NCBI RefSeq assembly: GCF_004122105.1
Contig: NZ_SBKN01000001.1
Location: forward strand, 124,001-188,000
Reading direction: 5' to 3'
DNA from: Flavobacterium stagni
GTDB lineage: Bacteria > Bacteroidota > Bacteroidia > Flavobacteriales > Flavobacteriaceae
DNA: 64,000 nt
Shown: positions 17,278 to 21,877 of the stretch, in pieces
How the letters are laid out: the number at the start of each line of letters is the position of its first letter
Numbering within the stretch: the first letter of the stretch is position 1
Translations under genes and position numbers: made by a program
The notes under the pieces: generated by a model
Told to the model about the DNA's origin: nothing
Database searches by the model: none
The model's input: the letters and a program-made list of their open reading frames with translations, nothing else

Positions 17278-17320
17278 TTGAGTTTTCTTAGAAATAAAAA
17301 AAACACTTTGACACGATTGT

Positions 17321-17450
17321 GCGGATATGTTATCCGTGCCCACCCTGTAGAAAGCAAAACCTACACCTAAATAGATGCAGTTTTACCTATTTTTGAAGAG
17401 TAATGTAAAAGCCAATTCTAGTGTATTGGCACGGATTGAAAATCCGCGCC
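17321..17450. repeat. Opposed REP-like palindrome pair (left module)
   Basis: Two palindromes in opposite orientation: GCGGATATGTTATCCG at 17321-17336 and, at 17428-17450, GGCACGGATTGAAAATCCG plus its tail CGCC. The right module at 20036-20155 has the same arrangement with the reverse-complement palindrome first. Such GGCACGGATT-type palindromes resemble REP sequences mobilised by REP-associated tyrosine transposases; no transposase gene is in this window. The stretch 17278-17320 between the Crp/Fnr stop and this pair shows nothing else. Confidence 0.5.
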
Positions 17451-17452
17451 AT

Positions 17453-17560
17453 CGGGATTCCATCAGATAAAAATTTAATTGATTGGAAAAAGTGGTTTAA
17501 ACGAAACAAGAAATACTTGTATTGGGATGAAAAAGAGCAAAAAGTAAAGTTAAAATTATA
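17453..17560 (+). pseudogene. Possible gene remnant (C-terminal fragment)
   Basis: A short reading frame without a start reads IPSDKNLIDWKKWFKRNKKY and then LYWDEKEQKVKLKL before a TAG at about 17559. The composition (Trp/Lys/Asn-rich tail) looks like a genuine protein C-terminus rather than random sequence, but the gene body is missing and REP-like DNA replaces it. It may be the stub of a gene disrupted when the neighbouring island was inserted. The following 17561-17670 holds only short inverted repeats. Confidence 0.3.
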
Positions 17561-17670: not shown

Positions 17671-17790
17671 GGGGTTACTGCAACTCAAAGTCAGGAGACT
17701 TTGCACAACAGGTTTTAAAATATGCTTTGTAAACCAACCTCACCCATTCAAATAAAAAAAGCACTCCTCTCGAAGTGCTTTGTTATCCAA
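17671..17790. repeat. Direct repeat flanking the AT-rich island, left copy
   Basis: 120 bp that aligns without gaps to 20161-20280; I count about 106 identical positions, with only three differences in the last 60 bp. It contains the palindrome CAAAGTCAGGAGACTTTG and the island's terminator (17755-17785). The two copies are 2490 bp apart and bracket the three island genes. Confidence 0.8.
17753..17786 (-). terminator. Terminator of the island operon
   Basis: On the minus strand AAAGCACT/AGTGCTTT with an 8-nt loop is followed by a T tract. It lies about 100 bp past the last gene of the minus-strand operon and is identical to the one at 20243. Confidence 0.75.
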
Positions 17791-17884
17791 ACACAAAATG
17801 TATATAGACTTTTAACAGTAATATATAATTTGTGTGATATTAAAATAATTTCAATAATTGTGAAACAAATCAAACAATTATATT

Positions 17885-18727
17885 TTATGGCTTCAAATAA
17901 ATAAAATCAAGAATAAATAACAAATCTACTGAACCTCTAAAAATAATTCTCCCATTTTTTAATACTAAAATTGTTGGAAAAGACTGAACATTGAGTTTTT
18001 CACTAATTTTTCTATTTTGAAAATAGTTTTTAAAATTATATTTTAGTGAATCCATTATAAGTTTTCCCTCTAGAATTTCATTGTTTTCTTCAAAAGAATT
18101 TATTGTAAGAAATAAGATATTATTATTCGATTTAAATTTATTTTCAAGTTTCTTGTATGAAGGAAATTTTTTATAACAAGGTGCGCAATTATTATTCCAA
18201 TAGTCTAATACAATTATTTTACTTTTTAAATTTGAAATATTAATATTTTTTTTCGTTTTAAAATCATATACAATCAAATTTTTAGAATTTACTTTATAAT
18301 TAACTTTACCAGTTATAGTCCCATAAAAATCAACTTGTTCACTTAAAACTGTTATTAATTGAGAAACGAAAAAAATAAAAACAAAATAAATTATTGTTGT
18401 AGAGTAAAATAATATCCTCCCTTTTTTTGAGATGTAATTCCCAAAAATTAATGAACAAAAGTTAATTGCAACAATAATGTTACCGCCTAACTTCACACCA
18501 GCGAACCCTTTAACAATTAGTGCCGTTATTAAAAAAAAAGTATGAATCAAAATAAAAAAAACAATAACTTTCAATGAAGCTTGACTAATGTTTTTTAGAA
18601 AAAATACAGGAAGAAAAAAAAAAATAAAACTAGAAAGAAATACACCAATATACCCTAATTCAACTGAGACAATACCAGAAATAGTATATAAAATTAAAAC
18701 TGTAACAAATAATAATGAATTTTTCAT
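17885..18727 (-). CDS. Multi-spanning membrane protein with TlpA-like thioredoxin domain
   Basis: 280 residues. The first 128 are four to five hydrophobic segments (LLFVTVLILYTISGIVSVEL, VFLSSFIFFFLPVFFL, VIVFFILIHTFFLITALIV, ILFYSTTIIYFVFIFFVS). The remainder is an extracytoplasmic thioredoxin fold with active site CAPC at 181-184 (YWNNNCAPCYKKFP), typical of TlpA/ResA-type thiol-disulfide proteins, and the cis-proline in SFPTILVLKNGR (Pro about 251). The membrane part has no obvious Cys pair of the DsbD or VKOR type, so how it is recycled is unclear. Its start overlaps the stop of the DUF1573 gene by four bases. Very A+T-rich with many Asn/Lys/Ile/Phe codons, unlike neighbours. Likely job: making or breaking disulfides in the adjacent Cys-rich product (inference). 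Confidence 0.8.
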   Translation of the reverse strand: MKNSLLFVTVLILYTISGIVSVELGYIGVFLSSFIFFFLPVFFLKNISQASLKVIVFFILIHTFFLITALIVKGFAGVKLGGNIIVAINFCSLIFGNYISKKGRILFYSTTIIYFVFIFFVSQLITVLSEQVDFYGTITGKVNYKVNSKNLIVYDFKTKKNINISNLKSKIIVLDYWNNNCAPCYKKFPSYKKLENKFKSNNNILFLTINSFEENNEILEGKLIMDSLKYNFKNYFQNRKISEKLNVQSFPTILVLKNGRIIFRGSVDLLFILDFIYLKP

Positions 18728-19092
18728 TTTACAACTTTAGCTTTGAATTTAATAATATTAAACTTTTCTTTAGTATTTAAATTGAATGCAATTGATTCCT
18801 CATTTAATCCTATCTCTGTAGCATGAAATTCAAAAATAATTTCGACATCATGTTTAGGTTTCAAAACACCCATATTATTGTTTACTTTAACACATTGGCA
18901 TGATGGCTGTATTTTATGTATGATAAGATCGCTTTCTCCTAGATTCTTTAACCTAACAATAATTCTTTTTTTATTTCCAATTTTTATCTCACCAATATAT
19001 TTTTCATAGTAAATTCCTACTTCTGTAAGTTTTTCATTATTCATACAAGCTGAAACGAAATAAAATAAAAAAAGACAAATTATTTTTTTCAT
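18724..19092 (-). CDS. DUF1573 lipoprotein
   Basis: 122 residues. A lipobox (FVSAC, Cys16) follows the signal sequence MKKIICLFLFYF. The rest is the Ig-like DUF1573 domain with KNLGESDLIIHKIQPSCQC and KPKHDVEIIFEF. The conserved CxC (Cys65, Cys67) is typical of the family. It is the middle gene of the island operon: 13 bp after the fulvocin-like gene and overlapping the thioredoxin-domain gene by ATGA. A second DUF1573 protein at 41697 is a periplasmic, non-lipoprotein version. Function of the family is not established. Confidence 0.82.
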   Translation of the reverse strand: MKKIICLFLFYFVSACMNNEKLTEVGIYYEKYIGEIKIGNKKRIIVRLKNLGESDLIIHKIQPSCQCVKVNNNMGVLKPKHDVEIIFEFHATEIGLNEESIAFNLNTKEKFNIIKFKAKVVK

Positions 19093-19105
19093 CTAAATCT
19101 AAACA

Positions 19106-19804
19106 TTAATATTTACATCTTCCAGTATTGTCTGACTCCCATAAACCAAAAAAATATGTCCTTGTATAACAATTTCCACCACAAGTACCATATTCCCAAC
19201 TTACCCCCCAAACACTAATTCCTGTAACTCTAACACATTCAGAACTGCTCTCACAAGTACAAGATCTTAATGCTTTACTCATATCACCTTCTTTTTCAAT
19301 TTCATTTAAAGCATTAATTCTTGCTATTCTATGATTAATATTTTCAACCTTTGTTAACAGATACCACCCTTCTTTTTCACCAAAAAGATTCTTTGCGTTT
19401 TGCATTATTTCATCACTTCTATTTTGAAGAAATTCAATCCTCAAATTAGATTTTTCATCGAATAAATTTTGGTTCAATTCTGATATCAAGCTATTGATAA
19501 AATTTATTTGCTCACTAGTAAGTGAATTATTCTCTTTAAAGTTTTCTAATTTGTAAATCCAAAGTGATAATTTATCCTCTGGAGAAAGTGTTGATGCTGC
19601 AAGAATTTGTTCATTTGTATCGTTAAGTGATACAATTTTATTGAAAGTATCTTCTATTTCAGCTGAACTCATTCTTTGAACATTTGAGTTACTACTAGAG
19701 TTGAAGAAATTTGATTGTTTAGGAATATTAGAATCATCATTACTACAACTGATAAATCCAAAAACAATAAAACTAAGTACAATTTTTTTAAATAATTTTC
19801 TCAT
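19106..19804 (-). CDS. Lipoprotein resembling bacteriocin fulvocin C-related proteins
   Basis: 232 residues. A lipoprotein signal peptide ends at Cys20 (FVFGFISC). A Ser/Asn-rich linker and a long helical, cysteine-free region follow to about residue 180, and then a 52-residue tail with six cysteines at about 182, 184, 190, 208, 212 and 230 (SCTCESSSEC, GTCGGNC, GRCKY). The CTCESSSEC start recalls the Cys-rich head of fulvocin C, a disulfide-bonded Myxococcus fulvus bacteriocin, and I recall a Bacteroidetes family named after it. First gene of a tight three-gene operon with DUF1573 and a TlpA-like protein. The tail may be cleaved off as a mature peptide, or the whole may be a surface lipoprotein; antibacterial activity is unproven. 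Confidence 0.65.
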   Translation of the reverse strand: MRKLFKKIVLSFIVFGFISCSNDDSNIPKQSNFFNSSSNSNVQRMSSAEIEDTFNKIVSLNDTNEQILAASTLSPEDKLSLWIYKLENFKENNSLTSEQINFINSLISELNQNLFDEKSNLRIEFLQNRSDEIMQNAKNLFGEKEGWYLLTKVENINHRIARINALNEIEKEGDMSKALRSCTCESSSECVRVTGISVWGVSWEYGTCGGNCYTRTYFFGLWESDNTGRCKY

Positions 19805-19942: not shown

Positions 19943-19977
19943 AAAAAAGGAAAAGTTAAAATTGAAAAAAAAGTAAA

Positions 19978-20032
19978 GGAAAAAACCCTGTAACTATTAG
20001 GAAAAAACCCTGTAACTATTAGGAAAAAACCC
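19978..20032. repeat. 22-bp tandem repeat, 2.5 units
   Basis: Unit starts GGAAAAAACCCTG and continues TAACTATTA; unit 1 is 19978-19999, unit 2 is 20000-20021 (identical by eye), and the third breaks off after 11 bases. It lies directly between the putative operon promoter and the right REP-like module. Confidence 0.75.
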
Positions 20033-20035
20033 AAT

Positions 20036-20155
20036 GGCGCAGATTTGCAAACCGTGCCCACACAACAAAAATTATATCCCTATTGATGTCGTTTTTTTAC
20101 TTTTGAGAAAAACTATATAGGCCTATTTGTATTAGCACGGATTGCAAAACCAAGC
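20036..20155. repeat. Opposed REP-like palindrome pair (right module)
   Basis: 20036-20058 reads, on the minus strand, GGCACGGTTTGCAAATC and then TGCGCC, nearly the same as the palindrome at 17428-17450. 20134-20155 is a degenerate copy in the opposite sense (AGCACGGATTGCAAAACC). Spacing between the two (about 98 bp) is close to that of the left module (about 107 bp). No gene is seen in 19805-20315. Confidence 0.5.
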
Positions 20156-20160
20156 TATAG

Positions 20161-20280
20161 GAGGTTACTGCAGCTCAAAGTCGGGAGAATTTGCGCAGCT
20201 GGTTTTAAAAAAATGTTTGTAAACCAACCTCCCCCATTCAAATAAAAAAAGCACTCCTCTCGAAGTGCTTTGTTCCCCAA
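20161..20280. repeat. Direct repeat flanking the AT-rich island, right copy
   Basis: Partner of 17671-17790. It contains the palindrome-like CAGCTCAAAGTCGGGAG region bounded by CAGCT/AGCTG, the shared AAACCAACCT and CCCATTCAAATAAAAAAAG stretches, and the identical terminator. It ends shortly before the minus-strand gene at 20316. Confidence 0.8.
20243..20276 (-). terminator. Terminator downstream of the 66-residue gene
   Basis: AAAGCACT/AGTGCTTT hairpin with an 8-nt loop and, on the minus strand, a T run. Same sequence as the island terminator at 17753. Confidence 0.75.
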
Positions 20281-20315
20281 ATAAAGTCGGTGTCAAAATT
20301 AAGTTAACCCATTAA

Positions 20316-20680: not shown

Positions 20681-21877
20681 ATGAACTACCGATTTTTACT
20701 GCTATTCCTACTCTGCAGTAGTTTTATTTATAGTACGCCTATTACCATAGAATCGCTGGAAAAAAAGGTATTTCAATTCAACGATTCATTTGAATATGAA
20801 AAATCCATTTTGGCAATTAACACCTTTCTTGATTCTCATAAAAATGAATCCGATCAAAAGCTTAGGGCATTAATCTTAAAATCCCAAACCTACAAGCGCC
20901 TTTTTAATTACGAGGAAGTGCTCCTTACCTTAAAATTGGCAGAAAAAGAAGCAATTCGCACCAAAACTCCTCAAAATAGTTTAAATGTTGTACGTGCCGA
21001 AATGGCGTTTGCCTTGTTTGACATTCATAAATACGAAGCAGCCCGAACACTAATGTTGGAACTCGAACTTAAAAAGTTTGAGGGCTTACCTAAAATCAGT
21101 GTTATATTTCTAAAAATGCAGGAAGGCTACTTGGAGTATTTGGATAATCGCTTACCGGAATCGGAAAAAAAGCTTAACGAAGCATTGACCATGGCAAAGC
21201 GTTATTCGCCGAGGGATGTGCCCAATATATTAGCCAAACACTTGGAACTGTATGCTAAAATGGGAAATCCCGCAAAAATGGAAGCGGCGTTTCAAGAAGG
21301 ATTAAGGTATTCCCGTCAGTACAAAATTCTAAAGTACGAACTGTACTTGTATGAAATCCGGAAAAAAATAGCCTTAGCGGAAAAAGATTACGAACATTTT
21401 CCAATGTATCAAAAAGTATTTGATTCTTTGAGTACGCTGTATAATTCTACTGAAAACATTGGTAAAGTACATTTGCTTGAACAAAAATTACAACGTCAAA
21501 AAAATGATCTTGACAAAAAATACGAAAAGGCTTTTCAAACTTTTTTATTGCTACTCATTGCGGTACTTGTCGCGTTGGCTGTCACGCTTTTTAAATATAA
21601 TATTGTCAATAAAACCAAGCGTGAATTGGCTGAAAATGAAAATCGACTCATTCATGATGAATTAATGCGCTTGACGAATTCAAAAAATGAAGAAAAGCTT
21701 CAACTTACGGATTATAATTTGACCGAACGCCAATTGGAAATCATTCAATACCTGAAAGAAGGCAAAACCAATAAGGAAATAGGCGCTTTACTTTTCATCT
21801 CTGAAAATACTGTAAAATACCATTTGAAAGCGATTTATGAAATCTTGAATATTGCTAATCGGACGGAGTTAAAGTAA
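20681..21877 (+). CDS. Membrane-anchored TPR protein with C-terminal LuxR-type DNA-binding domain
   Basis: 398 residues in the order: signal-type segment (FLLLFLLCSSFIYSTP), about 260 residues of helical TPR-like repeats presumably in the periplasm, a single membrane helix (TFLLLLIAVLVALAVTLFKY, about 287-306), a cytoplasmic coiled coil, and a LuxR/GerE helix-turn-helix (about 345-398: LTERQLEIIQYLKEGKTNKE, then IGALLFISENTVKYHL). The layout is a one-component transmembrane regulator that senses outside and binds DNA inside, related to the TPR-LuxR proteins common in Bacteroidetes. It has its own promoter; targets unknown. It lies close to the AT-rich island but outside its right repeat. Confidence 0.85.
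   Translation: MNYRFLLLFLLCSSFIYSTPITIESLEKKVFQFNDSFEYEKSILAINTFLDSHKNESDQKLRALILKSQTYKRLFNYEEVLLTLKLAEKEAIRTKTPQNSLNVVRAEMAFALFDIHKYEAARTLMLELELKKFEGLPKISVIFLKMQEGYLEYLDNRLPESEKKLNEALTMAKRYSPRDVPNILAKHLELYAKMGNPAKMEAAFQEGLRYSRQYKILKYELYLYEIRKKIALAEKDYEHFPMYQKVFDSLSTLYNSTENIGKVHLLEQKLQRQKNDLDKKYEKAFQTFLLLLIAVLVALAVTLFKYNIVNKTKRELAENENRLIHDELMRLTNSKNEEKLQLTDYNLTERQLEIIQYLKEGKTNKEIGALLFISENTVKYHLKAIYEILNIANRTELK

Follow-up and report, generated by a model that had tools for sequence, protein, structure and literature searches.

A horizontally acquired-looking, AT-rich operon joins a fulvocin C-related lipoprotein precursor to two candidate redox helpers

Pediocin PA-1 and PedC form a Gram-positive system. 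ResA is a reductase where it has been studied, and DsbB, VKOR and DsbD carry cysteine pairs in their membrane part. A selenocysteine form of a protein usually signals a redox-active cysteine. Pediocin PA-1 is described as having a dedicated thiol-disulfide oxidoreductase, PedC, and co-expressed PedC raises potency (PMC4919988). Pfam lists the function of the DUF1573 family, PF07610, as unknown; the DUF1573 selenoprotein OS_HP2 (pfam07610) is listed with UxC (PMC2398784), and DUF1573 selenoproteins with UGC in the CxC position are listed as well (PMC13188914; PMC9312934). Searches of an open library of papers, from which subscription papers are mostly absent, gave no description of the operon presented here.

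The operon occupies positions 17885-19804 on the minus strand of a 64-kb stretch of DNA, which was analysed as a whole and is called the window below. It consists of three packed genes in the order F, D, T, with a 13-bp gap between F and D and a 4-bp overlap of D and T; the initial annotation had proposed a three-gene island with this layout, and the open reading frames lie where it had placed them. On balance we lean towards a locus that was acquired horizontally and that encodes a bacteriocin-like peptide domain, stabilised by disulfides, together with redox helpers of its own. The features on which the argument draws are as follows.

19106-19804, minus strand: gene F, 232 aa, fulvocin C-related lipoprotein precursor (ORF list, NF033852)
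19109-19264, minus strand: C-terminal Cys-rich tail (F residues 181-232) with six Cys (alignment A1, slot table)
18724-19092, minus strand: gene D, 122 aa, DUF1573 lipoprotein (PF07610)
18892-18900, minus strand: CxC motif of D (C65, C67); C65 in 18/18 and C67 in 17/18 aligned D proteins
17885-18727, minus strand: gene T, 280 aa, TlpA/ResA-type thioredoxin behind five predicted helices (PF13905, PF00085)
18314-18727, minus strand: predicted helices of T, residues 1-138 (in the model, H2-24, H26-46, H49-74, H81-100 and H104-138)
18176-18187, minus strand: CAPC active-site motif of T (C181, C184); both Cys in 29/29 aligned T proteins
19977-20020, no strand: 22-bp tandem repeat, two perfect copies, about 170 bp upstream of F
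20163-20281, no strand: copy of the 119-bp direct repeat that lies upstream of the operon (89% identity to 17673-17791)
17673-17791, no strand: copy of the 119-bp direct repeat that lies downstream of the operon (89% identity to 20163-20281)

A relation of F to fulvocin C had been suggested together with a profile search as its check, and that search agrees: F scores 53 bits against NF033852 (NCBIfam fulvocin_rel, bacteriocin fulvocin C-related; cut-off 35, E 6.6e-14), with a match over residues 69-218 that spans the helical region and most of the tail. F matched no Pfam family. The protein is composed of a signal peptide, a lipobox cysteine at position 20 (FISC, by eye), a helical domain and the Cys-rich tail. 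An AlphaFold2 model predicts helices with block-mean pLDDT of 85-96 across residues 41-150, and the tail is poorly modelled (block means <50). A PDB sequence search with F returned only five matches (E 0.0079 to 0.77), which we read as chance or composition, and none of the 14 matches of a fold search had E <0.001. Mature fulvocin C, in a provisional version of its sequence, scores 26.1 bits on a profile of the 33 family tails; the best of 2000 shuffles reaches 16.9 bits.

To compare F proteins we used an alignment (A1) of 33 sequences from the 41 loci of our map, omitting eight loci that are truncated, below cut-off or broken (G276, G1159, G1302, three in G1216, G1376 and G022). All 33 match NF033852, as expected since that profile found them. 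Residues conserved in all or 90% of the rows fall within the tail, which is defined by eight cysteine slots: C1xC2, C3, C4, C5, C6 (in GCG), C7 and C8. The family form, CxC...C...C...C...GCGxxW...CxGxC, has all eight slots filled in 25 of the 33 members. The 52-residue tail with six cysteines that had been noted for the first product is present at residues 181-232 and fills six of the eight slots, lacking C6, C7 and the GCGxxW...C motif.

The departures from the eight-slot form are as follows. C6 and C7 are missing in two rows, the window and L066; C3 and C8 in three; C3, C4 and C8, with a new cysteine nearby, in two; and C4, again with a new cysteine, in one. C1, C2 and C5 are present in every row, bearing out the proposed conservation of the cysteines among homologues. 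C3 and C8 are thus lost jointly in five rows and C6 and C7 in two, and neither pair ever loses a single member. The cysteine count is even in all 33 tails (six in 7 rows, eight in 26), and by eye it is also even in those omitted loci that have a tail (7/8). Random placement of an equal number of cysteine losses reproduced the pairing in none of 20,000 trials, a control that ignores kinship. Judged by sequence similarity, paired losses arose about three times separately, C3-C8 twice and C6-C7 once, the latter counted as a single event because it is seen in the window and its nearest F relative alone. Since the two pairs are lost jointly and never singly, disulfides C3-C8 and C6-C7 are implied; we predict these two and two further bonds among C1, C2, C4 and C5. 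Paired cysteine loss thus supports a disulfide chemistry of the tail.

D scores 45.8 bits against PF07610 (gathering cut-off 26.1), and 17 of 18 aligned D proteins match this family (alignment A2, with one of 19 omitted as truncated, L063). A PDB sequence search with D gave six matches, mostly to eukaryotic HYDIN-type Ig domains (best E 9e-8). Because the CxC is conserved and selenocysteine variants of DUF1573 are listed, D is probably a redox partner.

The last product had been described as carrying CAPC in a thioredoxin fold behind several membrane helices, a description that fits what we see. T is above the cut-offs of PF13905 and PF00085, and its model (mean pLDDT 82) shows five long helices, which we read as a membrane domain, followed by a thioredoxin fold. 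In an alignment of 29 T proteins (A3; one of 30, a fragment in L072, omitted) the motif reads W-NNN-CAPC in the window, with W177 in 28 of 29 rows and P251 at the cis-Pro position in 28 of 29; Redoxin, AhpC-TSA and Thioredoxin_8 are each matched by 23 of the 29. The best PDB match of the T model is ResA 1su9 (E 1.7e-7, TM 0.70 by target), and TlpA-Sco mixed disulfide complexes (4txo) are among its fold matches.

Outside CxxC, the best shared cysteine column of T reaches only 4 of 29 rows, and membrane cysteine pairs of the DsbB/VKOR type were not found in the alignment. As no such column is shared by more than four T proteins, the membrane part appears unlike those of DsbB, VKOR and DsbD. The host genome has a DsbD_TM match and none to DsbB or VKOR, which is weak evidence from a 36-contig assembly (completeness given as 100). 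Across 12 F-positive genomes, its own included, DsbB is matched in none, VKOR in 5 and DsbD_TM in all 12. The VKOR matches, in G084, G643, G613, G796 and G541, lie in open frames of 512-542 residues and may be fusions rather than plain VKOR. With DsbD present and neither DsbB nor VKOR matched in the host genome, T could be an isomerase that DsbD maintains in the reduced state.

F-type genes are patchily distributed. With the NF033852 profile (E <=0.001), matches were found in 6 of 150 relatives and 17 of 398 genus genomes, both counts including one match (G073) that was rejected and kept out of the locus map for its four internal stops, and in 4 of 395 genomes sampled from the phylum, 9 of 395 from the class and 14 of 397 from the family; the samples overlap and each includes the host genome, which has one match. 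None of 14 control genomes had a match. A search of 119 order-level genomes with our own alignment matched 10, full-length only in the host genome and G175; nine weak places (E 3.7e-6 to 8e-4), in which mostly the N-terminal part was covered, were left uncounted. A genome-contig search with the window F protein returned 77 pattern matches, none of which was confirmed. A plasmid collection held no match for two F proteins and one weak TlpA match for T.

The locus map comprises 41 loci including the window, with two G276 places merged into one; D and T were recognised with profiles built from mapped loci (3 and 7 seeds). On the F strand the gene order is F-T in 13 loci, F-T-D in 7, F-D-T in 6, F-D in 6, F-T-T in 2 and F alone in 7. 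T thus follows F in 28 loci, D in 19 and either in 34, and the three genes keep company elsewhere much as had been anticipated. Above the NF033852 cut-off, 31 of 34 loci have T or D downstream, the exceptions being G425, G1525 and G1383. The initial annotation had named three outcomes that would speak against it, namely no similarity to fulvocin, no co-occurrence and unconserved cysteines; none of the three came true.

Several loci depart from these layouts. In G066 (F-D) the contig ends 184 bp behind D; G276 (F-D) combines an interrupted F with a stretch of undetermined bases and a weakly matching D (E 3e-4) that lacks the second CxC cysteine; in G655, T lies 2 kb away behind one further gene; and G022 has a broken F and no recognised D. 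Of the seven F-alone loci, four (G1376 and three in G1216) are below cut-off, and there both the Cys-containing tail and the gene downstream are of another kind. At L087 and L088 (G1216) and L089 (G1376), such a tail, with four or six cysteines by eye, is joined to a relative of the F helical domain, and a secreted protein of 272-290 aa stands downstream in place of T and D. Several peptides may thus have the helical domain of F as a common carrier.

By eye, L008, L009, L023, L026, L027 and L089 each have a divergent gene for an XRE-type regulator upstream of F, and the window has none there. The 22-bp tandem copies upstream of F in the window could, at a guess, be an operator; the sequence has no further match in the 64 kb when up to three mismatches are allowed. 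At L015 (G069), T is followed by an ABC-type ATPase and a small membrane protein, and the locus also has a secreted 130-residue protein common to G828 (all by eye); these are possible candidates for export or immunity genes.

The initial annotation had set the island apart from its neighbours as AT-rich, rightly so: the operon has a GC content of 24.6%, against 39.9% for the whole window. The 5-kb stretches beside the repeat pair have 45.3% (left) and 40.0% (right), with intermediate values of 34-36% in the first 1 kb or so to the right. Among the 40 loci whose flanks exceed 3 kb, 37 have an operon GC below that of their flanks, and the window shows the largest gap of all 41 loci (-17.5 points).

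The two 119-bp copies form the only direct repeat in the window that passes our scan (>=80 bp, >=80% identity, spacing <9 kb). They are 2371 bp apart, F, D and T are the only ORFs of at least 80 aa between them, and the host genome contains, beyond both copies, only four partial matches of 30-32 bp. The same scan of 39 other loci (497,030 bases; G1216b was omitted as the same stretch as G1216a) gave 10 repeat pairs, of which three bracket F, leaving 36 of 39 loci without a bracket. The bracket in G1376 (163 bp, 99%) covers the last codons and terminator of the upstream gene, read by eye as ribonuclease Y; that in G1216c measures 157 bp (82%); and that in G1279 measures 84 bp, with copies before F and before a second T. 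The bracketed F of G1216c and G1376 is of the below-cut-off kind. The window, G1216c and G1376 have inserts of 2207-2371 bp between their repeats, and by eye no integrase is found among the ORFs of these inserts. ARAGORN called no tRNA at the repeats in L010, L088 and L089, and across 30 loci it called one in L014 only; Rfam at gathering threshold gave one 6S-Flavo RNA, in L089. As the most AT-shifted of 41 loci and one bracketed by a direct repeat, the operon looks horizontally acquired, probably from another bacterium. Recombination between flanking homologies that captured the cassette is one option for the origin of the brackets.

Other elements lie near these repeats. The downstream repeat copy of G1216c (L088:8218-8373) ends like a tRNA T-arm and acceptor end, and neither ARAGORN nor Rfam calls a tRNA there. 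In the window, short palindromic elements GGCACGGAT...ATCCGCGCC at 17311-17455 and 20029-20161, beside both direct repeats, look by eye like REP-type elements. The LuxR-type gene (20681-21877) was rejected as a synteny anchor for an empty site, since its best match among 60 relatives has 41% identity.

We also compared the evolution of the genes. In four of the five closest F pairs the N-domain is 47-58% identical, against 28-32% for the tail outside the cysteine slots; the fifth pair is reversed (N-domain 48%, tail 73%). Faster change of the tail as a general rule was rejected, being seen only in close pairs and absent over all 465 pairs, where mean identity is 0.21 for the tail outside the slots and 0.20 for the N-domain. 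Three pairs, drawn from three genomes and partly with saturated dS, give a tail dN/dS of 0.18-0.42, and values for the F domain, tail, D and T are below 0.5 where computable. These pairs give no sign of positive selection on the tail, and by this measure the F domain, the tail, D and T are under purifying selection.

Mantel tests, from which six fragmentary or broken loci had been left out beforehand and in which the shared descent of the hosts adds to the correlation, relate F distances to those of D (r 0.63, 16 loci, P 0.0002) and of T (r 0.39, 23 loci, P 0.0002). Within the genus the values are 0.77 for F-D (11 loci, P 0.0002) and 0.51 for F-T (11 loci, P 0.0012). The nearest neighbours of the window differ between genes.

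These correlations bear on the role of D, which might be an immunity lipoprotein instead of a redox partner in an otherwise unchanged scheme. The proposal overlaps the reading we prefer, so that their odds are not additive, and we regard it as possible though rather doubtful. In favour of immunity, D is a small protein that adjoins F or T, our rule finds a lipobox in it at 15 of 19 loci, and it diverges more closely in step with F than T does; its CxC in 17 of 18 proteins and the listed selenocysteine variants point instead to redox chemistry, and D is missing beside F-T in 15 of the 41 loci.

In Flavobacterium johnsoniae the surface signal is given as SDDFE (PMC5080379). The lipobox cysteine of the window F is followed by polar and acidic residues (CSNDDS) that resemble this signal. 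Acidic residues at +2 to +7 average 2.0 in the 29 of 41 F proteins with a rule-found lipobox and 1.27 in the 15 of 19 such D proteins. The acidic, SDDFE-like residues after the lipobox cysteine suggest that F is likely on the cell surface and D in the periplasm. The F proteins of L015 and L064 have signal peptides that end in NAQ, without a lipobox cysteine.

In the operon as we read it, F would cross the inner membrane via Sec and then be lipidated. T (CxxC) and D (CxC) would set or shuffle the three disulfides of the window tail in the periplasm, or four in the canonical eight-cysteine relatives, after which F would move to the outer surface. There its C-terminal domain would act on neighbouring cells, tethered or after release, with the helical N-domain serving as carrier; D might in addition, or alternatively, shield the producer. 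The proposal in the initial annotation, an operon that makes and oxidatively matures a secreted or surface peptide, is supported in part: that the peptide would kill, that its tail would be cut off and that T would act as an oxidant and not as a reductant or isomerase are inferences from sequence. Antibacterial function is the likeliest role, favoured by a slight degree of confidence that rests on the family name, the patchy distribution and the gene layout.

The reading as an acquired operon for a bacteriocin-like domain is supported by the family match of F, the adjacency of T and D, the paired cysteines, the listed selenocysteine forms of the DUF1573 CxC and the Mantel correlations, and further by the patchy, AT-shifted, repeat-bracketed loci, the SDDFE-like signal, the fast tails in four of the five closest pairs and the score of the provisional fulvocin C sequence on the tail profile. 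It is weakened by ResA as the best fold match, by the lack of a DsbB or VKOR match and of a cleavage motif, by tails that over all pairs diverge no more than the N-domain and show no sign of positive selection, by the three above-cut-off loci without T or D, by the reduced tail of the window and by a paired loss of C6 and C7 that amounts to one event.

Some of these weak points fit better with F being a non-toxic surface lipoprotein, for adhesion, signalling or the envelope, with a disulfide-rich end that needs folding help and a fulvocin name that misleads. Such a role would suit the lipobox and the residues resembling the surface signal (PMC5080379), as well as a tail that is under purifying selection and that shows no common cleavage motif before its first cysteine in A1, by eye; 21 inspected neighbourhoods also share no further gene that is an obvious exporter or immunity gene. 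It accords poorly with patchy presence (17/398 genus genomes, including the host genome and the one rejected match), with AT-shifted cassettes of which three, including the window, are bracketed by long repeats of the resident flank, with tails that outpace the N-domain in four of the five closest pairs, if not over all pairs, and with the provisional sequence of mature fulvocin C, which resembles the tail alone. We consider it unlikely. That the tail binds metal through its cysteines, T and D acting as reductants or metal chaperones in the manner of copper delivery by TlpA/Sco, is improbable: the TlpA-Sco complexes among the T fold matches, the CxC and CxxC motifs and a host genome with DsbD and no DsbB or VKOR match speak for it, but fixed-pair loss and even counts in 33/33 tails fit disulfides better than a metal cluster, and no His column of the tail reaches 8 of the 33 rows of A1.

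The acquired bacteriocin-like operon that we prefer gives the fulvocin C-related family, so far no more than a name, a defined set of genes. It predicts specific disulfide pairs that can be tested by mass spectrometry, and it offers F as a substrate for finding the function of DUF1573 proteins. It also raises the question of how disulfides form in a periplasm where no DsbB or VKOR is found. If active, the proteins would represent, within this phylum, a class of bacteriocins that are disulfide-bonded and come with their own maturation genes. More tentatively, and with doubt prevailing, the locus could be a cassette of about 2.3 kb, mobile and lacking an integrase, by which a surface disulfide toxin and a private folding pair (T and D) reach bacteria without the usual disulfide-making machinery; if this is true, DUF1573 proteins would gain a concrete role as redox chaperones.

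Among known systems, the nearest named arrangement is that of pediocin PA-1 and PedC, a precursor gene with a thiol-disulfide oxidoreductase, as far as the published account of PedC goes; the comparison is one of how the two systems would work. The operons differ in that T has five predicted helices, D is without a counterpart and the window operon is without a dedicated exporter. F belongs to the NF033852 family above its curated cut-off, through its helical region and most of its Cys-rich end; the window tail has six cysteines against the family's eight, and the entry line names the protein family only, without D or T. The peptide of fulvocin C, from Myxococcus fulvus, in the provisional version of its sequence, aligns along nearly the whole tail profile; here that domain is the C-terminal end of a lipoprotein precursor and a candidate bacteriocin. 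T has in common with ResA and TlpA the thioredoxin domain and WxxxCxxC, and differs in the five predicted helices before the domain and in being an operon partner of F. D is a DUF1573/OS_HP2 (PF07610) member with CxC, here placed in a fulvocin-type operon.
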